This document shows, piece after piece, positions 39,113 to 55,944 of a stretch of 64,000 bases of DNA (positions within the stretch are counted from its first letter, which is position 1; each line of letters starts with the position of its first letter). A program made the translations under genes and the position numbers. The DNA comes from Siphonodentalium dalli. Its lineage: Eukaryota; Mollusca; Scaphopoda; Gadilida; Siphonodentaliidae. The DNA lies in assembly GCA_032622095.1 (NCBI GenBank), contig CP136064.1, positions 250,668,484 to 250,732,483 of the forward strand, written 5' to 3'. The notes beneath the pieces were generated by a model. That model saw nothing but the letters and a program-made list of their open reading frames with translations, ran no database searches and was not told the DNA's origin.

Positions 39113-39402
39113 AGTAGTAATGGTGGGCACTATGGCCCAGTACCCCCCAGACATGGGCACTATGGCCCAGTACCCCCCAGATATGGGCACTATGGCCCAG
39201 TACCCCCCAGACATGGGCACTATGGCCCATGGGCCATAGTGCCCATGTCTGGGGGGTACTGGGCCATAGTGCCCATGTCTGGGGGGTACTGGGCCATAGT
39301 GCCCATGTCTGGGGGGTACTGGGCCATAGTTCCCACCCTGAGGATAGATGTTCCTGTCATTGATGTGACATTTCTGATCGAAAAAATGAAAATGGACTTA
39401 GA
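39113..39402. repeat. Polinton left TIR (290 bp), itself a palindrome of 30-bp repeats
   Basis: The outer part has three 30-bp units (GGGCACTATGGCCCAGTACC then CCCCAGACAT), a palindromic centre CATGGGCC-type at about 39229, then three inverted units, followed by about 70 bp of unique text ending GGACTTAGA. Each TIR can therefore fold on itself as well as pair with the other. The match to the right TIR is nearly perfect except that the right one has one extra 30-bp unit. Confidence 0.93.
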
Positions 39403-39482
39403 ATTATTTTTTTTCAAAAGGAAAATCTCACTTTGGAAAATATCAATTAGCAATCAAGAGTTTTTCTTTTCGAATATTTGGT

Positions 39483-39498
39483 GGCCCTGAAAAGGGCC
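39483..39498 (-). terminator. Histone-type 3' stem-loop downstream of the OTU-like gene
   Basis: On the minus strand: AAAAC, then GGCCCTTTTCAGGGCC, then ACCAA. The six-base stem with UUUC loop matches the replication-dependent histone mRNA consensus (GGYYYU-UHUH-ARRRCC, A-rich 5' side, ACC on the 3' side). It lies 19 nt after the stop codon at 39518. About 20 nt further on comes a purine-rich AAAAGAAAAACTCTT. Confidence 0.7.
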
Positions 39499-39517
39499 GT
39501 TTTATTTTTGTTATAGT

Positions 39518-39982
39518 TTAGAATCCGCCACATTGAACTTCTTTGTTCGCCAAAACTTCAATTGATTTGTCTCCTCGCCTCATCCATATTTCGCATTCAC
39601 AATAATGCTCGTGGCAAACGTGTGGGATCCACACTAGAGTTATTGATGACTTGAATCTTGGTGTTGATTTGTAGCCGCCTTTGGTAGCATCAAACATGAC
39701 GATAGGTCGCTGTTTAACAGTCGCCGCTAATTCAACCATCAATCTTGATTCAGCCTAAAGTGGTGTGCGCCGTAACTCTTGTGCCGACGCACCAAGTTCG
39801 TCACTCTCTGCGTAGTACAGGTCAACTGCCGCATCTCTCAGAATCATCCATCCATCGGTCGTCCCGTAAACCCCGAGGCTGAGTGCCCTCCAAAACAGCG
39901 ATATTTCTTCACCGTACACTGCTTTACAGTATACCCCACCGGCCATTATCTCGTCAAGATCTGTTATGTTTACAGCAGTCAT
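39518..39982 (-). pseudogene. OTU-like cysteine protease homologue, interrupted by in-frame TAG
   Basis: The ATG is at 39982, in the same ATTCAAAGATG context as the gene at 41534. The frame runs 75 codons to TAG at 39757-39755, then continues open in the same frame for 78 codons to TAA at 39520-39518. The first half has SLFWRALSLGVYGTTDGW, which resembles the catalytic region of OTU deubiquitinases (family pattern GDGNC followed by hydrophobic, Arg, Ala). Here the catalytic-Cys position reads as Ser (S28) and the preceding acidic-Gly-Asn text is altered. The second half has LAATVKQRPIVMF and EHYCECEIW, resembling the later OTU strands and catalytic His. Either it is a decaying gene or the TAG is read through. 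It is followed by a histone-type stem-loop. The OTU call is by motif resemblance. Confidence 0.55.
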
Positions 39983-40550
39983 CTTTGAATGTAGAATAAG
40001 TCTGAAGATCCGTCTTGAACATATATCACGATTGCGCGGGCGGTAGAGAAAGCACATAATACTTTGACGTTAAAAATGACAAATGCTCCCTGACGTTGTG
40101 TTTCTTTTCAGTGCATTATCTGTTAGTTTCACCATTTCGATATGATATAGATTCAATTCATGATAGTATATGCAATTAATTAAGATATTTTAACATATGA
40201 ATTCATCTTCGTTCATAAACGATGACCAAGTAAAGTTATCAATTGTAATGATGAAGAAAACTAGAAAAACTAGAAAAACATTCCATATTTGCCTAACGAG
40301 GTAACAAATATATCAATCATGTGTACCAAATAATAGATAATGATCTAACGAAATAAAAAACATTTGTTTGATCGCTATGCAATAATGATCAAGAAAAATA
40401 TGAATGCTGATCCGTCTCTGAAAAAACACAACGCCAGGAAACATTTGTCAATTTTAACGTCAATGCGACATGTGATTTCATTGACGCCCGTGTCAAATGT
40501 ATAAAAATATTTTCGAATTTGATCAACGTTACATTGCATTGCTATCAAAG
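39983..40550. promoter_or_regulatory. Divergent promoter of the OTU-like gene and the 162-aa gene
   Basis: The two ends are inverted versions of each other. The minus side reads GCGGGCGG...TGACGTTAAAAATGACAAATG...CTGACGTTGTGTTT. The plus side carries CACAACGCCAGG...CATTTGTCAATTTTAACGTCA...GACGCCCGTG and then TATAAAAAT at 40500. A minus-strand TATA-like GATATATG lies at about 40026-40019. TGACGT/ACGTCA motifs resemble CRE/ATF sites. The same arrangement recurs at 41535-42430. Confidence 0.6.
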
Positions 40551-41039
40551 ATGGATCCGTTAACAGAATTTCTTCAGAGTGAGATATACAGTAATCCTGT
40601 TGTACAGAATACATATGCGGCACCACAGTCAACAGGCCAAGCTAATACGACAATGACTATAGGTGGTGATACACTCATTTTAAAAGCGATTTTAGATGAA
40701 CTGAGATGTCTTCGCAGGGATATTGACGTGAAAACACAAGTAACGCATCAAGAAGTAAAAGTGAATCTTCGTTTCGTTGCAGAAGAGATAGATATACCAA
40801 TCAGGGTTCATGATGTTCAGAGATCGAAAGAACAGAAACAGATCAAAAAAGAAAAAATATTGGCGGCGAAAGAAAAAGAACCTAAAAGTATCATGAAGCC
40901 TTCTACTGAGACAAAAGTCAGATTTCGTCTTCCTTGTAAAGAATCTAAAGATACAGAGAAAAGTGATGAATTCGCAAAAGCTATTGGTTCTCATGGGAAA
41001 GATATGTCAAGATATAAGAAAAACACAAAACGATGTTAA
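40551..41039 (+). CDS. Unknown Polinton accessory protein, 162 aa
   Basis: The ATG at 40551 was chosen because the in-frame upstream ATG at 40497 overlaps the TATA box. The N-terminal half is mixed (MDPLTEFLQSEIYSN) with a leucine-rich helix around LKAILDELRCLRRD. The C-terminal half is very basic and lysine-rich (KEQKQIKKEKILAAKEKEPK), ending KKNTKRC. There is no recognised domain. A histone-type stem-loop follows 22 nt after the stop. It pairs divergently with the OTU-like gene and converges on the 62-aa gene. Confidence 0.7.
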   Translation: MDPLTEFLQSEIYSNPVVQNTYAAPQSTGQANTTMTIGGDTLILKAILDELRCLRRDIDVKTQVTHQEVKVNLRFVAEEIDIPIRVHDVQRSKEQKQIKKEKILAAKEKEPKSIMKPSTETKVRFRLPCKESKDTEKSDEFAKAIGSHGKDMSRYKKNTKRC

Positions 41040-41061
41040 AGTCAGATGATAATTTTAAAAC

Positions 41062-41077
41062 GGCCCTTTTCAGGGCC
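41062..41077 (+). terminator. Histone-type 3' stem-loop of the 162-aa gene
   Basis: TTTTAAAAC precedes GGCCCTTTTCAGGGCC and ACACA follows, 22 nt after the stop codon. The downstream segment CCCAAAAGGTTACTCTTTCA is nearly identical to the one after the stem-loop at 42813. Confidence 0.7.
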
Positions 41078-41288
41078 ACACACATTTCCCAAAAGGTTAC
41101 TCTTTCATTGCTGAAAAAATCAAAAACACGATTGTTCAATTTATATTTTATTCAACAACAAATATTTGCAAGTATATTTTGTTTTAAATTATTCGTGGCG
41201 TGATTTTTTCAAAACAAAACATAGGGTACAAAGAACATTATTAGTTCTTAAGCAATGCTAAAAGTTTTTCTTTTTGAAAAAATTGGTT

Positions 41289-41304
41289 GGTCCTGAAAAG
41301 GACC
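41289..41304 (-). terminator. Second (covarying) histone-type stem-loop of the 62-aa gene
   Basis: On the minus strand GGTCCTTTTCAGGACC, preceded by AAAAAC and followed by AACCAA. Relative to the other hairpins the third stem pair is U-A instead of C-G, a compensatory change that keeps the stem and the UUUC loop. It lies 12 nt beyond the first hairpin and is followed by AAAAAGAAAAACTTTT. Confidence 0.65.
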
Positions 41305-41316
41305 GTTTTTGTTTTT

Positions 41317-41332
41317 GGCCCTGAAAAGGGCC
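41317..41332 (-). terminator. First histone-type stem-loop of the 62-aa gene
   Basis: On the minus strand CAAAAC, then GGCCCTTTTCAGGGCC, then AAAAAC, 13 nt after the stop codon at 41346. The 3' flank lacks ACC, which the second hairpin partly supplies (AACC). Confidence 0.65.
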
Positions 41333-41345
41333 GTTTTGTATGGCA

Positions 41346-41534
41346 TCAAAGTTCACGCCACGATTTTCTTTTGAGACTTTTGCTTTTGTTCCAACGCTGT
41401 TGTTTTTTGCATATTTGCATAACCAGTTTTGCACTGGCGGTTACTTCTTTTGCGTGTCCGGCCCGCATTATCTGGGGTGTTAGCCCTATCGTTCCTCTTA
41501 GTATAGACATCAACGGTTCGGGGATTTCGGACAT
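41346..41534 (-). CDS. Unknown small basic Polinton protein, 62 aa
   Basis: The ATG at 41534 sits in the same ATTCAAAG-ATG leader as the OTU-like gene, downstream of a duplicated promoter, which decides the start and frame. The C-terminal half is strongly basic (KKQQRWNKSKSLKRKSW). No domain is recognised. An overlapping ORF in another frame (41353-41562) was not chosen because its start lies upstream of this leader context. It may be a degraded remnant of a longer gene. Confidence 0.55.
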   Translation of the reverse strand: MSEIPEPLMSILRGTIGLTPQIMRAGHAKEVTASAKLVMQICKKQQRWNKSKSLKRKSWREL

Positions 41535-42430
41535 CTTTGAATGCAGAATAAAAATTGTTCAAAGCCGTGTTTGAACATATATCACGATTGCGCGGGCGGT
41601 AGAGAAATCACATGTCACGTTGGCATTAAAAATGACAAATGTTTCCGGGCGTTGTGTTTCTTTACAGTGCATTATCTGTTAGTTTTACTATTTCGATATG
41701 TTATAGATTAAATTCATGATAGTATATGCAATTAATTAAGATGTTTTAACATATGAATTCATCTTCGTTCATAAACGATGACCAAGTAAAGTTATCAATT
41801 GTAATGATGAAGAAAAATGTTCAGTATGTTTCTTGTGTTCAGTTTTTATGTATAAAATATGTACAATTCCAAAACCAAAAACTAGAAAAACATTCCATAT
41901 TTGCCTAACGAGGTAATAAATATATCAATCATGTGTACCAAATAATAGATAATGATCTAACGAAATTAAAAACATTTGTTTGATCGCTATGCAATAATGA
42001 TCAAGAAAAATATGCATGTTGATCCGGTTCTGAAAAAACACAACGTCAGGAAATATTTGTCAATTTTAACGCCAAAGTATTATGTGATTTCATTGACGCC
42101 CGTGTAACAATCTTGTGTTCAGTTTTATGTATAAAATATGTACAATTCCAAAAACAAAAACTAGAAAAACATTCCATATTTGCCTAACGAGGTAATAAAT
42201 ATATCAATCATGTGTACCAAATAATAGATAATGATCTAACGAAATTAAAAACATTTGTTTGATCGCTATGCAATAATGATCAAGAAAAATATGCATGTTG
42301 ATCCGGTTCTGAAAAAACACAACGTCAGGAAATATTTGTCAATTTTAACGCCAACGCGACATGTGATTTCATTGACGCCCGTGTCAAATGTATAAAAATA
42401 TTTTCACTTTTTCAGTGAACTTCATTCATT
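41535..42430. promoter_or_regulatory. Duplicated divergent promoter with internal 280-bp tandem repeat
   Basis: A longer version of the spacer at 39983-40550. A 280-bp unit starting CTTGTGTTCAGTTTTATG-type occurs at 41832 and again at 42112. Each has AACGAGGTAATAAATATATC, GATCTAACGAAATTAAA and CACAACGTCAGGAAATATTT. The plus side ends with GACGCCCGTGTC and TATAAAAAT at 42391. The minus side has GCGGGCGGTAGAGAAATCAC and GATATATG near 41582-41575. Confidence 0.6.
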
Positions 42431-42793
42431 ATGCCGTCGTTAAAGAAATTTATCAAGAAGTTATGGAGGAAGAGAGATTCAGATGAGACGAAAATAAGAA
42501 CATATAGGAAATGGCAGGATTCTCCTGAACAAAAGGTGGTACAGAAACAGATGCTAAGAGATTTTCTGGCTCGGCGACGACCATCGCCTGAAGTATGCGA
42601 TCAAGCAATCAAGAATCAAGAATCAAGCAATCTTGATCTCATGGAGATCTTGTCACAGATCTCGAAGAAAGATCTGTGCAATGCAGCAATTGACAGCTTC
42701 GCTCAGGCTGCTGCGGCGCACAGATCAAATCCTACTTGGTCTGTGACAATTAATCCCAACGGGATATATCCTGATTTGGCAGAATTTTTATGA
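42431..42793 (+). CDS. Unknown Polinton accessory protein, 120 aa
   Basis: ATG at 42431, 40 nt after the TATA box. The N-terminal third is very basic (LKKFIKKLWRKR), followed by a helical stretch (EQKVVQKQMLRDFLARRRPS) and an Ala-rich segment (IDSFAQAAAAH). No family is recognised. The histone-type stem-loop 19 nt after the stop is the most canonical of the set, with ACCCA. It converges on the zinc-knuckle gene. Confidence 0.7.
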   Translation: MPSLKKFIKKLWRKRDSDETKIRTYRKWQDSPEQKVVQKQMLRDFLARRRPSPEVCDQAIKNQESSNLDLMEILSQISKKDLCNAAIDSFAQAAAAHRSNPTWSVTINPNGIYPDLAEFL

Positions 42794-42812
42794 ATTCTGG
42801 AAAAGAAAAAAC

Positions 42813-42828
42813 GGCCCTTTTCAGGGCC
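42813..42828 (+). terminator. Histone-type 3' stem-loop of the 120-aa gene (canonical flanks)
   Basis: AAAAAAC, then GGCCCTTTTCAGGGCC, then ACCCA, the full metazoan histone mRNA 3' consensus including both flanks, 19 nt after the stop. CCCCAAAAGGTTACTCTTTC follows at the distance where U7 snRNA would pair in histone pre-mRNA. Confidence 0.75.
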
Positions 42829-42896
42829 ACCCACATTCCCCAAAAGGTTACTCTTTCATAGCTGAAAAAAACAAAACACGATTGTTCAATTCATAA

Positions 42897-42902
42897 TTTA
42901 TT
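42897..42902 (-). terminator. AATAAA polyadenylation signal of the zinc-knuckle gene
   Basis: AATAAA on the minus strand, 15 nt after the stop codon at 42918. This gene thus appears conventionally polyadenylated, unlike its four neighbours. Confidence 0.55.
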
Positions 42903-42917
42903 CACACAACATAATTT

Positions 42918-43520
42918 TCAAATGTTTGTATCGATTCGTTTATCTGTTTTTGGAATGTAGAATGGTCTCAGCTTCTTTTTCTTGGAAGTTTTCTTGGAAT
43001 TTTCAAAATCTGGATTTTTATCTTCAGATTTGTTCTGTGAATCATTCGTAGGATCAACAGGTCGGGGTTGTTTGAAAACATCTGATGTTGTAGACATCTC
43101 TTCAGTTTTGATATCTGCATTTTGTTCTTGTATTGTTACTGCTTGTAGACATTTTTGTATAGTTTTCACATTTTTTTTGTCGCCGAAATCTGTTTTACAA
43201 TGGAAGGACCAATGGGATTCTTGTCCGCATTTGTAACAGTAACCATATGGCGGTTTCCAATTTTTATCAGCTTTGTTTTTCTCTTGTTTCTCTTGCCATT
43301 GCATTTTGTTACAAAGTTTAAACAAATTGGCAGAGATCTGTCTCATTTCGACAAGATTATCTTGAATTTTTCTAGTCTGTGGCTGTGTAGATTTTTTTGA
43401 ATCTTCTTTATGTAGCTCAATATAGCTCTCTTCAATAACTGCAGGCCTTGGTCTTTTTCTAACAATATCTTCTTCGCTGGCGGCGTCGTCTGAAACAGGT
43501 CTTTTAATTCTCTTAAACAT
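42918..43520 (-). CDS. CCHC zinc-knuckle protein sharing the polymerase N-terminus, 200 aa
   Basis: The ATG at 43520 mirrors the polymerase ATG at 43716; an alternative CTG start 24 nt upstream is less likely. The first ~31 residues (MFKRIKRPVSDDAASEED onward) are identical to the polymerase N-terminus because the coding sequence lies in a perfect inverted repeat. The middle has YCYKCGQESHWSFHC, a CX2CX4HX4C zinc knuckle (C95, C98, H103, C108), suggesting single-stranded nucleic-acid binding. The C-terminus is basic (SKKTSKKKKLRP) and looks like a nuclear localisation signal. It may help replication alongside the divergently transcribed polymerase; this is inference. Confidence 0.75.
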   Translation of the reverse strand: MFKRIKRPVSDDAASEEDIVRKRPRPAVIEESYIELHKEDSKKSTQPQTRKIQDNLVEMRQISANLFKLCNKMQWQEKQEKNKADKNWKPPYGYCYKCGQESHWSFHCKTDFGDKKNVKTIQKCLQAVTIQEQNADIKTEEMSTTSDVFKQPRPVDPTNDSQNKSEDKNPDFENSKKTSKKKKLRPFYIPKTDKRIDTNI

Positions 43521-43811
43521 TTTTGTCTTGAGTTTTGTCAGCAAAAAATATTGCGACTGGCTTCTTCGGAGTTGAAGTGTAAAGTGTAGAATTACATCTG
43601 CTTTTATAGCATTTTCATCGCGAATGCTATAAAAGCAGATGTAATTCTACACTTTACACTTCAACTCCGAAGAAGCCAGTCGCAATATTTTTTGCTGACA
43701 AAACTCAAGACAAAAATGTTTAAGAGAATTAAAAGACCTGTTTCAGACGACGCCGCCAGCGAAGAAGATATTGTTAGAAAAAGACCAAGGCCTGCAGTTA
43801 TTGAAGAGAGC
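43425..43811. promoter_or_regulatory. Perfect inverted repeat forming a bidirectional promoter and shared N-termini
   Basis: Arms of 189 bp (43425-43613 and 43623-43811) are perfect complements around a 9-bp centre. Each contains CTATAAAAG (TATA box; plus strand 43627-43635), a leader with CTCCGAAGAAGCCAGTCG, and the first 31-32 codons of each gene. Such identity implies gene conversion or a recent inverted duplication. Confidence 0.85.
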
Positions 43812-46800
43812 GATATGGAAACTGATAAGGTAGAAAGTGAAGAGAGCGATATGGAAACTGATAGGGCAGAAAGTGAAGAGAGCGATATGGAAACTGATGA
43901 GGCAGAAAGTGAAGAGAGCGATATGGAAACTGATAGGGCAGAAAGTGAAGAAAGTTCTAGTGATGGGCAGATTGGACGCGGTCGAAGACAGAATAGAGAA
44001 ATTGGTGGGAAGAGAAAGAGAAGTCTGGCTAGAGAGCGTGTTGTGTTCAATCCAACAAAATATTTCAAAATGGAGCTGAACTCGGAGAAATTTTCCAGAA
44101 AATTTAAATCAGCATCACGACAATTTGGTGTGAAATTCGAGAAATTTACAGATCCAATCGAAAACATTCCAGAGATATTTGAGAAGTTGTCAGAAGAATT
44201 GAAACAGAAATGTTCACCAAATGAGAAGACAAGAATCAGAGTTACGATAAATCATCCAGGACTTGATATGAGCATTTTCATTCCATTCACAAAAGCCAGT
44301 GAATTGAATGGTGGGACACTCATGGATAATATTCAAAATGTGGTTCAATCAAATGCAGCCTTTACAATTCATGACGGTGCACTCAATTTCGAAATCTTCG
44401 TTACAGATATTCCGGAAGGTGGTACACGACACTCACTACATTATGGACCATTTGCAGACAAGAACAAGCTGACAAAAGTAAAAAGAAGTATTGTCCGGAT
44501 TGAAAATGCTGATGATGTTATGTGTATGTCAAGATCTATTGTCGTCGGAATGTGTAAGGCAGATAGTGATGGATCTGCGTGCTGGTCAAAGATATGGAAA
44601 AGAATAAGACAATCAATATACACAGCACAAACAGATGCAGCAAAAAATCTACTCAACCGTGCTGGCATTCCACACGATACAGTTTGCAGTATCAATGAGT
44701 TCCACAAGATTCAAGAAATATTGTATCCAGAATATGTTGTGAAAATTCACAATGAATTTGCTGGCGCTGGATTTCTATTTGAACCTGCAGAAATGTGTTC
44801 GGATAGCAAATGTGTACACATCTACTACAACAACAATCACTTCGACACCATAACATCAATCAAAGGATTTCTAGGCACCAGCTACTACTGCGAATTCTGC
44901 GACATTGGATTCCATATGCGTGGCGATCATCGATGCAGATTTGTTTGTGCATGCTGGTCATTGACACAGTGTAATTTCACAAATTGGGTGAAGTGTAGAA
45001 CGTGTCGACGATCATTCAGAAGTAAATCATGTTTCGACAACCATTTGAAGACGGAAGGAAAACAGAAAAGAAAAATATGTGATTTGGTTCAACTATGCAA
45101 CAATTGTGATGAAGAAATTCTCATCAATAAATCAAGCAGACATATATGTGCGGGGTTGAAGAAATGCAAACATTGCAAAGAAATCGTTGAAGCAGATCAC
45201 AGGTGCTACATTCCAAAATATGAATCACCGGAAAAGAAACCTGCAAAGATTCCATATGTATTCTTTGACTTTGAATGCAGACAAGACACAGGTGTTCATA
45301 TTCCAAACTTCTGTGTTGCACATACCGCTTGTGGAGATTGCATGTGCAAACCAATCGAAGAAAAATGTGAAACATGCGGACGGATTCCAGAGAATTTGTA
45401 TTCAAGGGTGACAATGTTTTAACAGACTTCACAAACTGGTTATTCCACCAAGATCACAAAGGATGTGTTGCAATAGCACATAATGCTCAGGGATACGATG
45501 CACAGTTTCTACTTCAAGCACTCATACAAAGTGGAATTCATAAACCAGAACTGATCATGAATGGAAACAAGATTCTCAGTTTAAAATGCAACAGCGTGAA
45601 AGTTATTGATTCTCTGAGTTTTCTGATGATGCCGCTTTCAAAGTTTCCACAAACTTTTCAGCTGAATGAGATGGCGAAAGGACACTTTCCACATTGGGCG
45701 AATTCACCAAAGTTTCAAAATTACATTGGACATTACTTGGCTTCTGATTACTACAAACCAGACATGATGAGCGTGGAAAATCGAGAGAAATTCTTTGAAT
45801 GGTACAATGAGAAAATAGAAAATTACGTGATATTCAACTTCCAAGAAGAGATGGAGAAGTACTGCAAATCAGACGTGGATATTCTTCGCCGTGGATGTGG
45901 AAAATTCAGGAAATACATATTGGAAACAGAACAGATTGACCCGTTCATTGAGTCAATAACATTGGCGCAAGTTTGCAATTTGGCATGGAGGAAGAATTCA
46001 ATGCCAGAGAAAACAATTGGAATCATTCCAGATGGTGGATACCCATGTGCTAAAAACTATTCCATGAAAGCGATACGTTGGCTTCAACATATATCATTGT
46101 CACGTATGATAACAATCAAGCATGCTTTGAATGGAGGAGAAATCAAGATTGGTGGACACTACGTCGATGGATATGAGGAAGCCACAAGAACAGTTTTTGA
46201 GATGAATGGATGTCTGTTTCATGGATGTCCAAAATGTTACAACAACAGACAATACAAGAATCCCTATACGATGCTCACCATGGAAGAATTATATACAAGA
46301 ACTCAACAGAAGAAAGATGAACTGGAAAGTGTTGGTTACAGAGTTGAATCAATTTGGGAGCATCAGATCGACGAAAGAATGAAATCGGATGTGAAATTCA
46401 AACAACAAATGGAATCTTTCTACAAACATCGAGACCCCATTTTGCCAAGAGAAGCATTGTTTGGTGGACGTACAAATGCCATCAAATTGTACGAGGAAAT
46501 TGATCAAGATTCCACAAAAGAAATCAAGTTCATCGATGTGTGTTCGTTGTATCCATTTTGCAACAAATATAAATTCTACCCTGTTGGACATCCAGAAATT
46601 TTGAGCCAAGAGCAGATCGATCAAGAACACATTAGAGACTATGCGGGGCTTGTTAAATGTACAATTTTACCACCATCGAAATTGTATATTCCAGTTCTAC
46701 CGATTCATTGTAACAAGAAAATGGTTTTTACTCTGTGCAACACTTGTGCCATCAATGAGAACGAGGCATGTAACCATTCAGAAGAAGATCGAGCTATAAC

Positions 46801-47775
46801 CGGAGTGTGGACCACGCCAGAATTATTCAAAGCAATGGATGTTGGCTACAAAATACTTGATGTGTACCAAATTTGGCATTGGACAGATTGGACAGATGAA
46901 ATATACAAATCCTATATCGACAAACATCTAAAGATCAAACAGGAATGTAGTGGTTATCCATTTGGTGTTGAGACAGAAGAACAGAAGCAAAAGTTTGTAC
47001 AGGATTATTATGCAGCTGAGGGTATAAAATTGGAGAACATCGAGAAGAATCCAGGAAAACGCCAAATATCTAAAATTATGATTAATTGTATATGGGGTAA
47101 GAATGCACAAAGAAATCTTATGTCAAAAACAGAGTATGTGGATAAACCATCACGTTATTTTGATTTGCTTACTAGTAACAATATAATTGTTCAAAATGTT
47201 ACACTTCTTGATGGTGACAAATTCATTCTGGTAAATTATGTTGATATTTTAGATAATATTGAACCTCATCATTCAGCAAATGTTGTTGTTGCTTCTTTTG
47301 TTACAGCGTATGCAAGATTACAATTGTATAAAGTTTTTAAAAAACTTGGAGATAGAGTGCTGTATTTTGATACAGACAGCTGTATGTATGTCAGTGATCC
47401 ATCAAAGAAGAACATCAAAGATTGGGGAAATGGAGCGACGAACATCCAGATGCAAAGATTGTCAAATTTGTTGGACTTGGGCCAAAGAACTACGGATATG
47501 AATACATCAAAGATGGGAGAAGATACACCAAATGTAAGGTAAAAGGTATCACTCTTGATTACAGCACAAGTCAAAAAGTTAATTTTGAAACAATGGTACA
47601 ATGTGTTAATGATCGTGAAAATTTCAAAACTGTTGTTGAGTATCCTTCCAGAATTAAAAGACAAAAGAACCATCAACTGATTAGTGAGTGTCAAACCAAA
47701 ACTTTCAGATCGGTGTACACAAAACGAAAACTCGTCAATGGTATTCATACATATCCATACGGATGGAGATGTTGA
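43716..47775 (+). pseudogene. POLB: Protein-primed DNA polymerase B (Polinton), two frameshifts
   Basis: The ATG at 43716 is 80 nt after the TATA box. A basic/acidic N-terminal tail with four 12-residue acidic repeats (43803-43946) precedes the Polinton-type N-terminal region with several Cys/His pairs (CEFCDIGFH, CRTCRRSF, CNNCDEEI, CKHCKEIV). Exonuclease motifs are FFDFECRQ, NAQGYDAQF and YCKSDVDIL. Polymerase motifs are DVCSLYP (A), KIMINCIWGKNAQR (B) and YFDTDS (C). One-base frameshifts occur at about 45385 and about 47430, so the protein lies in three frames (43716-45422, 45374-47542, 47422-47775). The catalytic residues are otherwise intact. It replicates the element from a terminal protein at the TIR ends. 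Frameshifts may be real decay or assembly error. Confidence 0.93.
43803..43946 (+). repeat. 36-bp coding tandem repeat, four units, in the polymerase N-tail
   Basis: Units starting GAAGAGAGCGATATGGAAAC at 43803, 43839, 43875 and 43911 encode ESDMETD plus an E/A/S linker. They are strongly acidic, absent from the sister zinc-knuckle gene, and likely polymorphic in length. Confidence 0.85.
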
Positions 47776-47791
47776 GTCATTTCATGTCAAG

Positions 47792-48388
47792 ATGTTGGCA
47801 GGAGTAGTACCTCCAGAAATTGCTGAGAAGATTTATGGATATTTGGTGGCACAGTCAACGCTTATTCCAGAGATAAAGAAGGAATTACAAGAAGTCTGGT
47901 TTGAAAGAGAAAAGAAAGCAATACTACGATGCTGTGATGTCGGCGAATGTTTACAGAGATTGGCCTATCTTGAGTCAAGTATATCTTCTCATTTCTCTCA
48001 AAAATATATTGAATCATTTATTAAATTCAAAACATTTTTTCTCATTGAAAAAATATCTGATTTTTGGATATTTGGTGGTGATCAACCCCATTTAGATTTA
48101 GATTTAGGAACTTTTGATGAACATGACTATATTCATTATACAAAGTATGAAGATCATTTTCCTCTTGCTGGGGGAACTTTTGAATCAGCTCCTAGGATCT
48201 ATGGGTATTTGTTAACAAAAAAAATGTCAACACATGCAAAAATTCAAAACATTTTGGGGGATGATTTTTATATTTACAGAACAAAGTACAGAAGAATAGA
48301 AGACTATAATAATTGGATTATTGAAATATATGGAAATATTTACAGCTTTGGAGATTTCTCTTTAAGAACTAAATTCACACGTCGTTAA
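47792..48388 (+). CDS. Unknown Polinton protein, 198 aa
   Basis: ATG at 47792, 17 nt after the polymerase stop; an in-frame upstream extension overlapping the polymerase was not used. It begins MLAGVVPPEIAEKIYGYLV and is rich in aromatic residues in the C-terminal half (FYIYRTKYRRIEDYNNW). No motif is recognised. Position between polymerase and packaging ATPase suggests a replication or early virion role, which is inference. Confidence 0.65.
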   Translation: MLAGVVPPEIAEKIYGYLVAQSTLIPEIKKELQEVWFEREKKAILRCCDVGECLQRLAYLESSISSHFSQKYIESFIKFKTFFLIEKISDFWIFGGDQPHLDLDLGTFDEHDYIHYTKYEDHFPLAGGTFESAPRIYGYLLTKKMSTHAKIQNILGDDFYIYRTKYRRIEDYNNWIIEIYGNIYSFGDFSLRTKFTRR

Positions 48389-48421
48389 GTTCACTCTCTG
48401 ATTAGACATCAAAGTGACAAC

Positions 48422-49072
48422 ATGGAAGAATCTTTACTTTTCCAACATCCGTGTAATTTCTTTATCAGCGGACCTAGTGGATCAGGTAAAACAGAATTTG
48501 TTAAAAAAGTTATTGAATTTAAACACGATTTATTCCAAACACCACCAAAGAAAATAGTTTGGTGTTACAAAGAATGGCAAGACACATACAATCGTATAAA
48601 AGAAATTGATAACGTTGAGTTTATCGATGGTATTCCAGACGATGATGAGGAAATTGTATCAGATAAATCATTTCCTCATCTTGTTGTTTTCGATGACATG
48701 ATGGGGGAACAAGATGAAGACAAAATAATGCTTTGGTTTACTAGAAAAGGTCATCATCGAAATGCTTCAATAATTTACATTACTCAAAACATGTTCCAAA
48801 AATCAAAAAGTAGCAGAACTATAAGTTTGAATGCACACTACATGGTTTTATTTCAAAGCGTTCGAGATAAAAATCAAATAAAAGTTTTGGCTCATCAAAT
48901 GCAAACCAATCATTTGAAACAAGCATACGAAGATGCAACTTCAATAAATCATGGATATATTTTAGTAGATTTTCATCCTAGAACAGAAAATTATTTGCGA
49001 ATTAGAACTGATATTTTCCATAAATGGTTGACAGCTAAAGACCGAGGTCTTGTCATTTATTCAAAAGTATAA
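48422..49072 (+). CDS. ATP: FtsK/HerA-type genome-packaging ATPase
   Basis: 216 residues from ATG at 48422. The Walker A motif GPSGSGKT is at residues 17-24 and the Walker B region LVVFDD at 87-92. ITQNMF follows at the sensor position, and Arg-rich text (FTRKGHHRNAS) between them could supply an arginine finger. Length and layout match the A32-like packaging ATPases of Polintons and related viruses, which pump genomes into capsids. No damage is visible. Confidence 0.93.
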   Translation: MEESLLFQHPCNFFISGPSGSGKTEFVKKVIEFKHDLFQTPPKKIVWCYKEWQDTYNRIKEIDNVEFIDGIPDDDEEIVSDKSFPHLVVFDDMMGEQDEDKIMLWFTRKGHHRNASIIYITQNMFQKSKSSRTISLNAHYMVLFQSVRDKNQIKVLAHQMQTNHLKQAYEDATSINHGYILVDFHPRTENYLRIRTDIFHKWLTAKDRGLVIYSKV

Positions 49073-49106
49073 ATTCAGTTGTTGTTACTTTTTTCATTTT
49101 AGAACC

Positions 49107-49693
49107 ATGTCGTCCACCGAGATGTTTAGTCATGATGAACTGTCACAAATTATAAATTTCTTCACTTTTGCAGCTGAATTATTTCTTGAACATGATTGGA
49201 AATTACCATCACAGACAAAAAAGTTTTTTCAGAGAAATAAAAATGTTCTTAAAAAAATCTCTGATCGATCAACTGATATGGAAACAAAACGCAATTTAAT
49301 TTTACAACGAGGTGGTAGTGGGTTCCTTGGGGGAGTTTTAATTAGAAGTCTTTTGAAAAATTCATTTGAACAAACTGGTAGACAATCTAAAAGTAAATCA
49401 AAGGTTTCTCCAAAACGTTCAAAGATTACACTGATGCAAACACAACAAAGGGGTAATCAAAAAGAATCTAAACGTAAAACAAAGCTTTCTCTAAATCATT
49501 CAAATTTACACCGATGCAAACTCAACAAAATCAACATTCTAAATTTACACCTATACCTTCTCAGCAGAACCCTCAACATCAACCGTTACAAAAAAAACCA
49601 GTTATTGATCTTGAATTTTCTAAATTTATGCCGTTGTCTGATCCATCGAAATCGGCATTCGAAGCTTTAGAATGGTTCAATCAGAAAAGATAA
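49107..49693 (+). pseudogene. Polinton small virion-type protein with QRGG motif, frameshifted
   Basis: ATG at 49107 (the earlier in-frame start lies in the ATPase). The N-terminal helix (LSQIINFFTFAAELFLEHDW) leads to LILQRGGSGFLGGVLIRSLL, a Gly-Gly site followed by a hydrophobic helix. Such layout resembles adenovirus/Polinton precursor proteins cut by the adenain-like protease. A basic low-complexity region follows with repeated MQTQQ text. At about 49485 the frame shifts by one base: the protein-like C-terminus (SDPSKSAFEALEWFNQKR) is in another frame, ending TAA at 49693. In the unshifted frame the ORF runs on to 49670 as Asn/Leu-rich filler. Confidence 0.65.
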
Positions 49694-49749
49694 AAGATGA
49701 AACATATAATTTTTCTGCTCATTTTGAGACAACTACTTAGACTGTGAAG

Positions 49750-50112
49750 ATGTCTTCAAAAACTAAGAGCCGGAAAGTACCGCTGATAAAAAAATATGGG
49801 GAGTTGATTGTTGCAATGAGTAAAGTTCCATCTGCATATAAAAAGAAAATGATCAACGATGCTCCGAAACAAGTGATGGATTGCATTTCAGAATGTTGTC
49901 AAAATCTTTTAAAAGGTAATGTAAAACTGAATGAAGCTCAGAACCGCAAGTTACATTCGAAGTGTAAACATATCAGATATCTTGCAGACAAGAACAAACC
50001 TTTGCAACAAAAGAAGAAAATTTTGAATCAAAAAGGTGGCTTTTTACCATTATTATTTCTTGCTCCATTGATTAGCAAAACATTAGGTGCAGTTGTTAAA
50101 AATATTTTGTAA
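49750..50112 (+). CDS. Polinton small virion-type protein with QKGG and membrane-active tail, 120 aa
   Basis: ATG at 49750 (a GTG two codons earlier is less likely). Basic helical body, then KKILNQKGGFLPLLFLAPLI and SKTLGAVVKNIL at the C-terminus. The Gly-Gly preceded by a basic residue fits an adenain-type cleavage site, releasing a hydrophobic or amphipathic C-terminal peptide. Similar proteins recur in Polintons. A role in capsid maturation or membrane penetration is inferred. Confidence 0.75.
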   Translation: MSSKTKSRKVPLIKKYGELIVAMSKVPSAYKKKMINDAPKQVMDCISECCQNLLKGNVKLNEAQNRKLHSKCKHIRYLADKNKPLQQKKKILNQKGGFLPLLFLAPLISKTLGAVVKNIL

Positions 50113-50132
50113 AAACTAAATCTCAAATAAAT

Positions 50133-50852
50133 ATGAAGAAAATGGTTATTGTACCATTCAGAATGTTGGAAGATTTCAAACAATGGAAAATGTCAGAAAT
50201 GAATAAACCTCAATTACCTCCTGATCCTGCAATTTCAAATGTTTCAGATTCTTACAAAGAATTGAAATCAGTTTATGATAAAAATATTTCTGAATCAGAA
50301 AAGGCACAGTTATTTGGAGAAAATTTGTACAAATTGAAAACTTCACAAAAATCTTTAAATTCAAAATTCAGTTTACCTGAACAAAAGTTATCTGAAAACT
50401 TTGGGAACATGAGTGAACATATATTGGAAAGTGTTCCATCTAAACTTCGTGGTAAAGCACAACAAATTTTAACATTGTTGTCAACTAATCCTAAACTTAG
50501 ATGGGATGATCGTGGACAATTAATTTATGGAACAGAAACAGTTACTGGATCAAATATAATTGATTTGATAAACGATGTTGTTCGTCACCGAAAAGGTTTT
50601 GACCCAGTTGGTTATGAAACATTCCTACGTGGATTGGGGGAACTTAATGTACCACAAGATTATGTAGGTAACAGGAATCGATGGTTGTGGATACAAAGAC
50701 ATTTAAAAGGTCACACTGGTGATGAGTTTCATACACCTCATGCAACTCCTAGCAGTGGCAAGTCAAGAAAACGTTCAGTTGATATTTTCACACCTCAAAG
50801 TTTTCCTAAAACCAGAAAATCTATTTTGAAAGAATGGTCCCCACTTACATAA
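50133..50852 (+). CDS. Conserved Polinton protein of unknown function, 239 aa
   Basis: ATG at 50133. A coiled-coil-like N-terminal half (SVYDKNISESEKAQLFGENL) precedes a segment with NPKLRWDDRGQLIYGTETV, NIIDLINDVVRHRKGFDPVG and GLGELNVPQDYVGN. These blocks recur in Polinton gene sets, though the biochemical role is unknown. A basic C-terminus follows (SGKSRKRSVDIF). It overlaps the integrase by 19 nt. Confidence 0.8.
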   Translation: MKKMVIVPFRMLEDFKQWKMSEMNKPQLPPDPAISNVSDSYKELKSVYDKNISESEKAQLFGENLYKLKTSQKSLNSKFSLPEQKLSENFGNMSEHILESVPSKLRGKAQQILTLLSTNPKLRWDDRGQLIYGTETVTGSNIIDLINDVVRHRKGFDPVGYETFLRGLGELNVPQDYVGNRNRWLWIQRHLKGHTGDEFHTPHATPSSGKSRKRSVDIFTPQSFPKTRKSILKEWSPLT

Positions 50853-51928
50853 AATTTGACAAACTTCTAACTGAAATTTACTACAATCCAAAAGAAGTTG
50901 GTGGTTTCAGTGGAGCAAATCAACTTTTTAAAAATGCGAAAGAAACAAATAACAAAATTAAACTTTCAGATGTTAAAAAATGGTTACAATGGCAAAAAAC
51001 ATATACTTTGCACAAACCAATTGTTCGGAAATTTCGCAGACGTAAAACTATTGTTGCAGGAATTGATATTCAGTGGCAAGCTGATTTGGCAGATTTGCAA
51101 ACTTTGCAAAAGCACAATGACAATTACAGATATTTACTTTGTGTTATTGATGTGTTCTCAAAATTTGCATGGGTTGAAAAAATTAAAGACAAAACTGGTA
51201 AAACTTTAGTTAAAACATTTCAGAAAATTCTCAAATCATCAAAACGAAAACCAGTTTCATTTCAATCTGACAAAGGTTCCGAATTCAAAAATAAATTATT
51301 TTTACAATTTTTGAAATCTAAGAAAATTCATTTTTTCACAACAGAGAATCCAGAGACAAAAGCAAGTATAGTTGAACGTTTTCAACGGACATTGAAAACA
51401 AAGATGTGGAAATATTTTACACATAATCAAACTTTGAAATACAATGATGTTTTGCACTATTTTGTGAATTCTTACAACAAAAGTTTTCATAGAAGTATTA
51501 AGATGGCACCAGTTTTAGTAACTCGAGAAAATGAAATTGAAGTTTCCAGAAATCTTTATGGAAAGTTAAAAACGAAAATAGATAAGATCTTGAAAGTTGG
51601 AGATTTTGTTAGAATAAATAAAACAAAGAGAACTTTTGATAAAGGATATCTTCCAAATTGGACAAAAGAAATTTTCAAAATTAGTAGAGTTTGTAAAAGT
51701 ACACCATTAACTTACAAATTAGTAGATTTAGATGGTGAAAACATCGCAGGTTCATTTTATGGTAAAGAAATTCAACATATAAAGGATAATAAAGTTTACG
51801 AAATTGAATCAGTTGTTGGTAAACGTTCAAGAAAAGTTGCTGGTAAATCAGTTAGAGAAATTAAAGTTCATTGGGGTGGTTATCCTAAAAAATTTGACAG
51901 TTGGATTCCTGCCACAAATTTGGTATAA
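50834..51928 (+). CDS. INT: Retroviral-type integrase with C-terminal chromodomain
   Basis: 364 residues. The rve core has the catalytic triad intact: D84 (QADLADL), D146 (FQSDKGSEF) and E181 (ASIVERFQRT), the last two 35 positions apart. It lacks a clear HHCC zinc motif at the N-terminus, which is usual in part of the Polinton family. The C-terminal ~45 residues (VYEIESVVGKRS, REIKVHWGGYP, FDSWIPATNL) form a chromodomain, which probably tethers insertion to histone-modified chromatin. The 6-bp target duplication seen here is its expected product. Confidence 0.95.
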   Translation: MVPTYIKFDKLLTEIYYNPKEVGGFSGANQLFKNAKETNNKIKLSDVKKWLQWQKTYTLHKPIVRKFRRRKTIVAGIDIQWQADLADLQTLQKHNDNYRYLLCVIDVFSKFAWVEKIKDKTGKTLVKTFQKILKSSKRKPVSFQSDKGSEFKNKLFLQFLKSKKIHFFTTENPETKASIVERFQRTLKTKMWKYFTHNQTLKYNDVLHYFVNSYNKSFHRSIKMAPVLVTRENEIEVSRNLYGKLKTKIDKILKVGDFVRINKTKRTFDKGYLPNWTKEIFKISRVCKSTPLTYKLVDLDGENIAGSFYGKEIQHIKDNKVYEIESVVGKRSRKVAGKSVREIKVHWGGYPKKFDSWIPATNLV

Positions 51929-51938
51929 AACTTTTAAC

Positions 51939-52961
51939 ATGGCTCAAAATGGTTCAGTTGATCTGGATGCTCCATCACAATTTCAAATCTGTGGAGAAAA
52001 AATTGCAAAAAATCAAGTAACATATTTTACACAAATTATTATAATTGTTGGTATAATCGCTACAGCGTTTGAAATATTTGAAAAATCAGTCGACAGAAAT
52101 TTTGAAAGTATGAATTCTTTCTACATTACAATTCCGAGCGACAGTTCAATGGTAATGTATCCAAACAATACTCAATGTTGTTTTACTGTACAATTACCAA
52201 AACCAATTCAAATTGATAAAGAAAAATGGGAAGTTGCATTAGTCGAACTGATAACACCTTCAGAAACATACAATGTTACAGGGGATTCGTGTAAATTCAA
52301 TTTGATTACAACTGATGCAATAATACTGTCTGTTCTTCAAAATCGTTTTGAAGAAAAGATATTTACGAGACCTGATGGCGTTCGTGCAATTGAAATACAG
52401 ATACGCGAAGGTTCGTATACCTCTGCGACAGATTTACTTGATACAATGCAAGATGTAATTGATGAAACACTTGGAGAAGCAATGCAAAACGAATACGGAT
52501 TTCACATCAAGTACTCAAAAGTTACAAAACGTGTGAAAATTATTCGCAAGAGTTTAAGTATCCCAAAACTAGGAATTGAATTACCACAATGTCTTTTGCA
52601 CAAGTTGGGTTACAAAACTGAAAACGCTTCTGAAGATTTTTATTCAAATAGTAGATTTCCGTTTGGTGTAGATTTGTTTGTTGGTCATAATCAAATGTTT
52701 GTTTATTCTGATATTGCCGATTTCACAATTGTTGGAAATGTTGAAGTACAAATTTTACGAGTTGTTTCTTTCAGAATTAAAAGAGATATCGACGGATTAC
52801 ATGTAAAACATGAATTTTTAAATTTACATTATGTTCCAGTTTCAAAGTCATACTTTGACAAAATTAGTGTAAATATAAGTGGCGACACAGGAGAATCAAT
52901 TCAGTTTATTGGTGGTAAGTCTTTGGCGAAGCTGCATTTCAGAAAACGAGAGGAGTTCTAA
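51939..52961 (+). CDS. mCP: Small membrane protein fused in frame to penton-like minor capsid protein
   Basis: ATG at 51939 opens MAQNGSVDLDAPSQFQICGE, then a transmembrane-like helix (YFTQIIIIVGIIATAF). In many Polintons a separate ~80-residue membrane microprotein starts like this. Here there is no stop, and the frame runs into MNSFYITIPSDSSM (ATG at 52110), the usual start of the single-jelly-roll penton protein. The latter includes KEKWEVALVELITPS and continues to 52961 (283 aa from 52110). So either one fused 340-aa protein is made, or the penton starts at 52110 and the first 57 codons are the remnant of a microprotein that lost its tail. The penton forms the capsid vertices. Confidence 0.85.
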   Translation: MAQNGSVDLDAPSQFQICGEKIAKNQVTYFTQIIIIVGIIATAFEIFEKSVDRNFESMNSFYITIPSDSSMVMYPNNTQCCFTVQLPKPIQIDKEKWEVALVELITPSETYNVTGDSCKFNLITTDAIILSVLQNRFEEKIFTRPDGVRAIEIQIREGSYTSATDLLDTMQDVIDETLGEAMQNEYGFHIKYSKVTKRVKIIRKSLSIPKLGIELPQCLLHKLGYKTENASEDFYSNSRFPFGVDLFVGHNQMFVYSDIADFTIVGNVEVQILRVVSFRIKRDIDGLHVKHEFLNLHYVPVSKSYFDKISVNISGDTGESIQFIGGKSLAKLHFRKREEF

Positions 52962-52966
52962 AAACA

Positions 52967-53341
52967 ATGTTTCCCGTGTATAGAGGTGTACCACGGCAAT
53001 ATGGTAACGGTATTGGTTCAATTTTCAAATCACTTATGAGATCTGATGTACCATTTCTAAAACCGATTGGTCGGACAGCTTTACAACTTGCGAAAAAACA
53101 CACTTTTGGTGTTGCAGATGAAATTATTAATCAAGGTAAAAGTCCGAAAGAAGCGTTGATGTCTGAAGGTAAAAAAGCTTTAAAATCTTTTGGCACACAA
53201 GCTAAAAATCAAATTTTGAACTCGAGACAAAAACCTAGAAAAAGAGTAGCGAATTCAAAAATGAATCATTCAGCTGTCAAACGCCGAAAAAGTCAGTCGA
53301 AAAAACATCCTAGCAGTCGAGCTCTTGATATTTTTGATTAA
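52967..53341 (+). CDS. Small basic virion-type protein, 124 aa
   Basis: Starts MFPVYRGVPRQYGNGIGSIF, followed by hydrophobic/basic helix text (RTALQLAKKHTFGVADEI) and a lysine/arginine-rich tail (KPRKRVANSKMN, KRRKSQSKKH). Proteins of this make-up, next to the capsid genes, recur in Polintons and recall adenovirus core or cement precursors. The N-terminal GNGIG could be a protease site. It is five nt after the penton stop and two nt before the MCP start, so co-expression is likely. Confidence 0.75.
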   Translation: MFPVYRGVPRQYGNGIGSIFKSLMRSDVPFLKPIGRTALQLAKKHTFGVADEIINQGKSPKEALMSEGKKALKSFGTQAKNQILNSRQKPRKRVANSKMNHSAVKRRKSQSKKHPSSRALDIFD

Positions 53342-53343
53342 TC

Positions 53344-54648
53344 ATGGCACAAATGGTAAATGGATCATGCGAATGCAATAAATCGGAACTTGATATAACA
53401 CATGTTCCACCAACGGTGGCTACAATGTCAGAATCGCAGTGGATCGAAAATCATCCGATTGCACCGCTGAATAATTCTGCTCCGATAGAGTTTGTCATAC
53501 CATCTCAAACCGAAAAGTGGACAGATATTAACCAATCTTATCTTTATGTGAAATTCAAAATTACAAAAAAAGATGGAACTAATTTGCTAGCTGGTACGGA
53601 ATTAGCACCTGTTAACAATTTCTTTCATAGCATGTTCAGCAGTATCGATGTTTACTTGAACAACAAATTGATAACTTCGAATTCTGACACTTACCCATAC
53701 CGAGCATATTTCGAAAATCTGTTGGGATACTCTCCAGAATATAAAGATAATCAATTAGCAAATTTAGAAATGTGGTATGGCGATACAGCAGAACAATTTG
53801 AAGAGAATACCAAAGGTGGTGGCAATGCTGGATTAACTTCTAGAGAAAGTTTGATCGGTGGTAGTAAAATTGTTGAACTATGTGGACGCTTACACACTGA
53901 TCTGTTTCTTCAAGAAAAATATTTACCAAATGGAATTGAAATTCGTATCAGATTAAACAGATCACCATCAAAATTTTGCCTCATTGGCGGCGAGGATGGA
54001 CAAATTGTTTTCGAATCAGCAGTGTTCCATGTCAGAACAGTTAGTCTCTTTCCAGCGGTCTCAAATAAATTAAATCAAGAAATTGTCCAGTCAAAAATGA
54101 AAATACCTATCAGACGAGTAGAAATAAAAACTTTCACAATTAGTACTGGACTTAGATCAAAAATTGAAGACCACTTATTTCAAGGACAATTACCAAAGAG
54201 AATTTTTATTGCGTTGGTCGAAAATAAAGATATGAATGGAGATTTGGGTACCAATCCATTCCACTTCAAACATTTCAGTTTGAATAAATTGGAAGTTAGT
54301 CAAGACGGTCATACAATACATAACCGTCCATTTGAACCAAACTTCGCAACAAAACAATGTCTCAGATCATATTTATCTTTGTATCAATCTTTAGGAATGT
54401 TTGGTGTTAACAAATCAATTGGCATTAATTTAAAAGAATATATGAATGGATATTGTTTGTGGGGTTTCGACTTGACACCGGACCAAGGAAGTGACGAGGG
54501 ACATCTACATCCTATAAAGACAGGGAACCTGCGTTTGGAGCTTCAGTTCTTGACAGCTCTCACTACAGCCGTCAACGTTTTGGTGTATGCTGAATTCGAC
54601 AGTGAAATAGAGATCACAGCTTTGAGAGAAGTGCTTACTGACTATTAG
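53344..54648 (+). CDS. MCP: Major capsid protein (double jelly roll)
   Basis: 434 residues, full length for Polinton MCPs. Characteristic blocks include PIEFVIPSQTEKWTDINQSY, NNFFHSMFSSIDVYLNNKLI, YPYRAYFENLLGY, LHTDLFLQEKYLPNGIEIRI and a conserved C-terminal GNLRLELQF. It builds the hexagonal capsomers as trimers. No damage seen. Confidence 0.95.
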   Translation: MAQMVNGSCECNKSELDITHVPPTVATMSESQWIENHPIAPLNNSAPIEFVIPSQTEKWTDINQSYLYVKFKITKKDGTNLLAGTELAPVNNFFHSMFSSIDVYLNNKLITSNSDTYPYRAYFENLLGYSPEYKDNQLANLEMWYGDTAEQFEENTKGGGNAGLTSRESLIGGSKIVELCGRLHTDLFLQEKYLPNGIEIRIRLNRSPSKFCLIGGEDGQIVFESAVFHVRTVSLFPAVSNKLNQEIVQSKMKIPIRRVEIKTFTISTGLRSKIEDHLFQGQLPKRIFIALVENKDMNGDLGTNPFHFKHFSLNKLEVSQDGHTIHNRPFEPNFATKQCLRSYLSLYQSLGMFGVNKSIGINLKEYMNGYCLWGFDLTPDQGSDEGHLHPIKTGNLRLELQFLTALTTAVNVLVYAEFDSEIEITALREVLTDY

Positions 54649-54649
54649 G

Positions 54650-55661: not shown

Positions 55662-55820
55662 ACTCTTTTTGTTATTGATTCAGCGTAGGATGTTGTAGGA
55701 TGTTCAATTAAGTTTCTTCAAATCTGAGACCTTGTTTTGTACATAAATTATTGTTCTTGTTAATATTATTGATGTATAATAATATATTATTGTTCATTGT
55801 TCTTGTTCTTGTTTTTGAAA

Positions 55821-55826
55821 AATAAA
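55821..55826 (+). terminator. AATAAA polyadenylation signal of the late block
   Basis: AATAAA 160 nt after the protease stop, the first on this strand after the late genes. It is the probable 3' end of the capsid/protease transcripts. Confidence 0.5.
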
Positions 55827-55944
55827 ATGATAAATTTCAACAAAATCGTTTTCACTGTAGGACCCCCACCATTTGATTCTGTTCGTGTCGATGTGTCATC
55901 TCTGGTCAGAATTATACAAACTTTAAATTAGTAATGAAAAAATG

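Follow-up and report, generated by a model that had tools for sequence, protein, structure and literature searches.

The window, by which we mean the whole 64-kb stretch of DNA analysed, contains a complete Polinton (Table 1). This identification, made earlier in a sequence-only reading, is borne out by terminal inverted repeats, a 6-bp target-site duplication, and genes for polymerase B, an integrase and a packaging ATPase. The polymerase B region is occupied in this copy by two overlapping frames, of which the second matches PF03175 (E 2e-40), a polymerase B of the predicted protein-primed type, and the first matches no Pfam family above cut-off. A further product, a putative capsid protein, has 97 or more matches across the genome (98–100% identity) and 1006 relatives; in a listing of 120 of these, the entries naming an organism were F54H12.2-like proteins of bivalves and one clam-symbiont bin. 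The host genome holds dozens of near-identical copies of the Polinton. IMG/VR yielded no relative for any of five queries: the second polymerase B frame, the integrase, the capsid-like protein, an alignment of 24 capsid sequences and a hairpin pattern of 20 bases. Matches to mir-1263 and mir-3190 in the inverted repeats were rejected, being below the cut-offs and derived from the palindromic repeats.

The left end of the element carries four small accessory genes, A to D, arranged as two divergent pairs (A/B and C/D). None of them matched a Pfam family at E up to 5, with gene A tested as it stands in other copies, and hence none matched a histone, in agreement with the earlier statement that these are not histone genes. 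The proteins of D and A have no homologue in a search of 5.8 billion proteins, and AlphaFold single-sequence models of D and B reached a mean pLDDT of 46 and 47, respectively, and were set aside. In the present copy, A and C appear to be damaged. Gene A is interrupted by an in-frame TAG at 39755-39757; elsewhere, an uninterrupted frame of 179 codons is found in 13 of 19 A-slot loci. The frame of gene C differs here from its relatives in other lineages, and the gene is probably degenerating. An apparently different gene preceding the D-type hairpin in one further copy (L054) was discounted, as that copy reads as rearranged and degenerate.

Table 1 Features of the Polinton and of its accessory gene cassettes, in order along the window. 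Motif positions (+) are given relative to the hairpin.
Feature	Coordinates	Strand	Details
Polinton, complete, 17,152 bp	39113..56264	.	flanked by the 6-bp target-site duplication TATAGC; ends AG...CT
Left terminal inverted repeat	39113..39410	+	30-bp repeat arrays
Gene A downstream element	39449..39469	-	AAAG at +14, ATTGCT at +29
Gene A hairpin	39483..39498	-	19 nt past stop 39518; RF00032 match 39503-39457(-), 41.8 bits, E 6e-9
Accessory gene A, from inner ATG	39518..39982	-	frame open upstream to 40057
Putative bidirectional promoter region of A/B	39983..40550	.	basis: divergent genes and duplication
Accessory gene B, 162 aa from inner ATG	40551..41039	+	180 aa from 40497; no Pfam family
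Gene B hairpin	41062..41077	+	22 nt past stop 41039; RF00032 match 41057-41101(+), 40.1 bits
Gene B downstream element	41092..41112	+	AAAG at +15, ATTGCT at +30
Gene C downstream element	41251..41273	-	AAAG at +16, ATTGCT at +33; stretch equals host H2B at 36 of 46 aligned positions
Gene C second hairpin (C2)	41289..41304	-	41 nt past stop; RF00032 match 41309-41263(-), 37.1 bits
Gene C first hairpin	41317..41332	-	13 nt past stop 41346; RF00032 match 41337-41312(-), 22.2 bits, below cut-off
Accessory gene C	41346..41534	-	62 aa in this copy
Putative bidirectional promoter region of C/D	41535..42430	.	partly duplicated
Accessory gene D, 120 aa	42431..42793	+	no Pfam family
Gene D hairpin	42813..42828	+	19 nt past stop 42793; RF00032 match 42808-42852(+), 40.2 bits; followed by ACCCACA
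Gene D downstream element	42843..42863	+	AAAG at +15, ATAGCT (one change) at +30
Gene E	42918..43520	-	weak, sub-threshold Pfam match to a zinc knuckle; hairpin absent; poly(A) hexamer (AATAAA or ATTAAA) 15 nt past stop
DNA polymerase B region	43716..47542	+	two overlapping frames, 43716-45422 and 45374-47542
Packaging ATPase (Pox_A32)	48422..49072	+	PF04665, E 8e-9
Integrase (rve)	50834..51928	+	PF00665, E 2e-12; chromodomain match slightly below cut-off
Capsid-like protein	53344..54648	+	no Pfam match
Adenovirus-type protease candidate	55095..55661	+	PF00770, 19.4 bits against a cut-off of 21.3
Right terminal inverted repeat	55937..56264	-	287 nt complementary to left repeat at 99%

Histone 3′ hairpins are bound by SLBP, U7 snRNP directs cleavage, and the resulting mRNAs are non-polyadenylated and limited to S phase. 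On the sense strand, 3′ of each of the four accessory genes, lies a hairpin of the GGCCCTTTTCAGGGCC type. The sequence-only reading had claimed as much, and its account holds in its particulars: the first hairpin follows the stop codon by 19, 22, 13 and 19 nt for A, B, C and D, the orientation is sense relative to the preceding gene without exception, and the 3′ flank at 42829 is ACCCA. Gene C has two hairpins in tandem, and in the second, C2, one stem pair is T-A where the others have C-G, with pairing kept. All five hairpins thus lie in coding-strand orientation, 13–41 nt past a stop. The likeness to the metazoan histone type, with its 6-bp stem and conserved 4-nt loop, was likewise upheld by the Rfam model of the histone 3′ stem-loop (RF00032, gathering score 34 bits), whose cut-off was passed by four of the five (37.1–41.8 bits), the exception being the first of the tandem pair. 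Across the window RF00032 matched nothing beyond these five at E up to 10, leaving the Polinton genes other than A–D with no such hairpin, and a scan with a hairpin rule recovered exactly the same five. Over 200 first-order Markov simulations, the chance expectation for the hairpin rule was 0.02 for an element of 17 kb. Genome-wide, 409,530 first-look candidates led to 75 sites scored with RF00032; the top five (43.2–44.2 bits) fell in copies of the Polinton, and the best histone-array sites reached 42.2 bits.

The H2A, H2B and H4 genes of the host end in the identical 16-letter hairpin, located 29–36 nt past their stops. Beyond it, these three histone genes have AAAG at +14 to +16 and ATTGCT at +29 to +35; the Polinton slots have AAAG at +14 to +16 in all four cases and ATTGCT at +29 to +33 in three of four. 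This downstream element in the host's register had been missed in the sequence-only reading, and we regard it as a stronger point. A CA dinucleotide follows the hairpin at +5 for C2, B and D and at +4 for A, as against +5 in host H2A and H2B and +4 in H4; cleavage 5 and 7 nt past the loop is described in PMC6303110. When the 3′ ends were compared with those of the host genes, C2 was beaten by none of 2000 dinucleotide shuffles against H2B or H2A and by 16 of 2000 against H4. The 3′ end of gene A was beaten by 13 (H2B) and 5 (H2A) of 2000 and was not outstanding against H4 (1254 of 2000), and those of B and D were not clearly outstanding against any host histone gene (45 to 1112 of 2000). Given the persisting likeness of C2 to the 3′ ends of host H2B and H2A, the element's 3′ end was probably taken from a host histone gene. 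The host histone promoters gave no blastn match to the Polinton promoters at E up to 1.

Transcripts of giant viruses follow a hairpin rule for 3′ ends. The hairpins described here, which come after stop codons on both strands, might by the same token be the element's own general 3′-end or termination signals, operating without SLBP or U7. We consider this very improbable indeed, because the match to the histone model is one of sequence, flanks included, and extends to the host's downstream element, and because the element's other genes do without such a hairpin.

The two divergent gene pairs are duplicates of one cassette. Units B and D are 84–96% identical in the upstream region and 90.5% identical at the 3′ end over 116 nt, beginning 5 nt before the hairpin, whereas their coding parts gave no blastp match at E up to 10. 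Similarly, units A and C are 83–96% identical upstream and 69.6% identical at the 3′ end over 112 nt, with 22 of 22 positions shared at the first hairpin, and their coding parts gave no blastp match. The hairpin sites are therefore not four independent gains, as the pairs are duplicates. At the same time, the genes matched here, B with D and A with C, have promoter and 3′ end in common but not the coding sequence, and the 3′ end therefore behaves as a reusable module.

RF00032 matches above cut-off were present in 38 of 40 accessory regions fetched from copies of the element, 114 matches in all (62 + 52); eight capsid-region pieces of the family, including the window's own, had no RF00032 match. 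In the 40 fetched copies AAAG was kept in 117 of 119 hairpins of slots A, B, C2 and D found by pattern, and ATTGCT in 78 of 85 hairpins of slots A, B and C2. The hairpin itself was identical to that of the window in 140 of 149 covered instances, an identity largely explained by the youth of the copies; seven of the nine variants break at least one pair. At 20 hairpin loci from nine diverged copies, 8 of 320 stem-loop positions had changed, compared with 50 of 2080 in more distant non-coding sequence and 143 of 2383 in coding sequence, the latter being significantly more (p = 0.009), and the downstream element had 29 changes and 20 gaps in 760 positions. Across 39 alignable copies, differing sites numbered 12 of 2392 in hairpins and 80 of 9597 in nearby non-coding sequence. 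Because stem-loop changes are no rarer than those in distant non-coding sequence, the young copies give no sign of selection on the hairpin itself.

Such rates would be expected if the hairpins were relics of a single captured host histone 3′ end, spread by cassette duplication and now idle, with polyadenylation occurring further on. The identity to the host hairpin, the H2B-like downstream element and the duplication itself would fit this history, as would the poly(A) hexamers that gene A has at +11 and gene C at +193. We nevertheless judge it unlikely, since the module remains attached to unrelated coding sequences, the C-G to T-A change in C2 preserves the pair, and the hairpin is so widely identical among copies, with the reservation on their age given above. 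Nor does AATAAA or ATTAAA occur within 400 nt after genes B and D; this counts for little, as the hexamer is equally absent over that distance from 5 of 13 other genes.

Some histone mRNAs are polyadenylated in non-dividing cells and oocytes, which raises the alternative of a dual use in which SLBP on the hairpin serves translation or stability and the mRNAs are often polyadenylated. The hexamers near A and C speak for such an arrangement and their absence near B and D speaks, as weakly as before, against it; we hold it to be quite improbable. As for the host machinery, the SLBP RNA-binding domain (PF15247) was found in two stretches of the host genome, at 60.6 and 31.4 bits against a cut-off of 27, which we take as exons. 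RF00066 gave no match to a host U7, and the control was silent as well, making the search uninformative.

The reading that we prefer, with a probability of roughly three in four, is that the accessory genes end in the host's histone-type stem-loop together with a histone-like downstream element, and that their transcripts are handled as replication-dependent histone messages, much as the sequence-only reading had proposed. As predicted from sequence, host SLBP would bind the hairpins and U7 snRNP would likely cut the transcripts, leaving mature ends at the CA 4–5 nt past the hairpin. The resulting mRNAs would lack poly(A), and their expression would track DNA replication and be limited to S phase. 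The element probably acquired the 3′ end from a host histone gene, after which the cassette was copied. A likely use is the production of accessory proteins at times when the host supplies replication factors; genes for replication and capsid, being without the hairpin, would take another route.

We also favour, by a modest balance of the evidence, the broader view that this is the first animal non-histone regulon with histone stem-loop message ends, an S-phase switch of a mobile element built as a promoter and 3′-end cassette that receives new coding sequences. If so, the element would sense host DNA replication in a manner new among genome parasites, would offer a natural test of what suffices to make an mRNA replication-dependent, and would exemplify a viral cassette in which promoter and 3′ end outlast the coding sequence between them. 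Our literature search found no case of Polinton genes ending in this way. At E up to 5, RF00032 matched none of four Polinton pieces of other animals, located in symbiont-genome contigs, and a general Polinton feature is therefore unsupported.

Terminal inverted repeats, the 6-bp duplication, polymerase B, integrase, packaging ATPase and, as a candidate, a protease-like gene are features that this element has in common with Polinton/Maverick elements and the related adintoviruses, from which the histone-type 3′ ends of its two divergent accessory pairs set it apart. An RF00032 match is also described, in PMC7786107, within coronavirus genomes; it is of the same Rfam family and lies in a virus, but it is internal, lying within nsp3 and not at a gene end, and scores 14.7 bits, whereas the Polinton matches score 37–42 bits and lie past stop codons. 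The closest counterpart is the 3′ end of metazoan replication-dependent histone mRNAs, with which the accessory genes share the hairpin letters of host H2A, H2B and H4, the sense orientation soon after the stop, the CA at +4 or +5, and AAAG and ATTGCT in register, with one change in slot D. They differ in that the Polinton genes have no histone match and reside inside a mobile element.

Five hairpins lie 13–41 nt 3′ of the four small accessory genes at the left end of the Polinton (genes A to D), all on the coding strand, bearing out the claim of the sequence-only reading that the hairpins are in sense with the genes they follow. Four of the five pass the cut-off of RF00032, the Rfam histone 3′ stem-loop model (gathering score 34), and one falls short; no further matches with E up to 10 were listed in the window, and the hairpin is absent from the remainder of the Polinton. 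A UUUC loop closes a GGCCCU/AGGGCC stem. In C2, the second of two tandem hairpins 3′ of gene C, both members of one pair are changed, giving GGUCC/GGACC. The 3′ regions of genes A and C fold better than shuffled sequences (z −3.6 and −4.5), and those of genes B and D give no clear gain (z −1.6 and −0.5).

The same 16 hairpin letters occur in the host H4, H2B and H2A genes, 29–36 nt 3′ of the stops. Host histone arrays are located on C5 and C8, and six array loci were read (L006, L007, L008, L061, L065, L068). The 2.2 Gb genome of nine contigs, in which the window lies, gave 75 scored RF00032 sites, a lower bound given 409,530 candidates at first look. Sixty-three sites fall, by coordinate, inside the two histone arrays, ten are assigned by sequence to copies of the Polinton (L001–L005, L062 twice, L063, L064 and one within L022), and two more probably belong to such copies, judging by their distance to capsid matches. 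The five top-scoring sites are all Polinton sites. The host also encodes SLBP, part of the histone-mRNA 3′-end machinery; its RNA-binding domain is found in two stretches 4 kb apart, with a stop at the edge of the weaker one, which we read as two putative exons.

The Polinton encodes polymerase B, a packaging ATPase, an integrase and a protease-like gene scoring just under cut-off. At least 97 places in the genome match its capsid-like protein at 98–100% identity, a minimum since 97 of 2112 candidates were scored; 86 of the 97 are free of internal stops. Together these suggest that the element multiplied in a very recent burst. Among the 120 relatives listed of 1006, those named by organism are bivalve proteins from Mercenaria, Ostrea, Crassostrea and Saccostrea, and one clam-symbiont bin, pointing to a probable molluscan host. 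The miRNA-family matches in the terminal inverted repeats arise from 30-bp arrays and are under cut-off. A 212-nt inverted repeat causes gene E, the next gene inward, and the polymerase frame to start with identical amino acids in divergent orientation.

Features of the Polinton and its surroundings (window positions)
Feature	Position	Strand	Remarks
Polinton	39113–56264		17,152 bp; TATAGC target duplication on each side; inverted repeats
Terminal inverted repeats	39113–39410, 55937–56264		contain head-to-head arrays of a 30-bp unit
Gene A	stop 39518	−	
Gene B	40551–41039	+	
Gene C	stop 41346	−	
Gene D	stop 42793	+	
Gene E	42918–43520	−	
Inverted repeat	43402–43613, 43623–43834		212 nt, 96%
Polymerase region	43716–47542	+	two overlapping frames in window copy, 43716–45422 and 45374–47542
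Capsid-like gene	53344–54648		
Frame outside Polinton	31352–33163		603 aa; putative Penelope-like reverse transcriptase, by resemblance

The accessory genes are arranged as two divergent pairs that are duplicates of each other, each pair with one common upstream region. In the alignment of genes B and D, identity in the shared upstream region is 84% across 535 columns and 96% across 250, and the shared 3′ end, counted from 5 nt before the hairpin, reaches 90.5% across 116; blastp found no match between their coding sequences. For A and C the upstream region is 83% and 96% identical and the first hairpin 22/22, with weaker likeness in the 3′ stretch (69.6% over 112); here too blastp found no coding match. 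Gene E, which adjoins D convergently, carries a poly(A) hexamer 15 nt 3′ of its stop. Where gene A is open in other copies, such as L021, it bears by eye a faint likeness to an OTU-type fold, and Pfam gave no match for it; a KVRF stretch in gene B resembles a PP1-docking motif.

Forty accessory regions were fetched for the 97 capsid matches (20 of the best 21, the window's own omitted, and ranks 61–80), and 38 contained RF00032 matches above cut-off (62 + 52 = 114). The other two were L043, which does not align to the window accessory region, and L044, which aligns partially. Eight capsid-region pieces, including the window's own, contained no match. Alignments of 39 copies covered 149 hairpin instances and left 46 uncovered; 140 of the 149 are identical to the window. 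At least one stem pair is broken in seven of the nine variants (L030, L032, two in L034, L042, three in L046, L053), and L037, L004 and L064 hold variants beyond this count. Substitution rates give no sign of special constraint on the hairpin: across the 39 copies it changes at 0.5% of sites, vs 0.8% for non-coding sequence nearby. Nine diverged copies give 2.5% for the hairpin, 2.4% for +47 to +150 and 6.0% for coding sequence. Gaps in these nine number 0/480 in the stem-loop and next 8 nt, and 20/760 in the downstream element. In the diverged copy L062, identities for frame and 3′ region are 76% and 97% (C), 88% and 96% (D), and 94% for both (B).

Four Polinton pieces (L017–L020), found in bacterial assemblies through a capsid-like gene 37–41% identical, come from an Escarpia symbiont (two), a Bathymodiolus symbiont and a Breoghania bin, and are probably host contamination from animals. 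RF00032 gave no match with E up to 5 in these partial pieces, some of which may lack the accessory end, and no relative was found in IMG/VR. Among the papers listed, in coverage that takes in little subscription material, no description came up of a histone-type 3′ end for Polintons or for other non-histone genes of mobile elements; the accessible part of PMC11071296, on adintoviruses among others, mentions neither stem-loop, hairpin nor polyadenylation.

Sequence comparison makes a strong case that the Polinton accessory genes carry a histone-type 3′ end closely fitting the host's own. The predicted steps from this signal to processing and S-phase timing rest on the known biology of SLBP and U7. 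Downstream of the hairpin, AAAG lies at +14 in host H4 and +16 in H2A and H2B, and at +14, +15, +16 and +15 in A, B, C2 and D. ATTGCT follows at +31 (H4), +33 (H2B) and +35 (H2A) in the host and at +29, +30 and +33 in A, B and C2; D has ATAGCT at +30 instead. Within +26 to +36, ATTGCT arose by chance in 101 (A), 36 (B), 225 (C2) and 19 (D) of 20,000 first-order shuffles. Across the 40 fetched copies, AAAG is in register in 117 of 119 pattern-found A, B, C2 and D hairpins, ATTGCT is retained in 16/19 A, 29/32 B and 33/34 C2, and ATAGCT occurs in three A, two B and 34/34 D. Gene C's first hairpin (34 cases) lacks both because the second comes directly after it. As a whole, the C2 element matches host H2B at 36/46 positions, with none of 2000 shuffles as good; the corresponding numbers are 0 against H2A and 16 against H4. 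Element A gave 13 (H2B) and 5 (H2A) of 2000 and no likeness to H4 (1254), and B and D gave no clear excess (45 to 1112). A CA follows the hairpin at +5 in B, C2 and D and +4 in A, and likewise in the host genes. Clam histone genes are reported to carry stem-loops, together with partly shifted purine-rich elements (PMC6210712).
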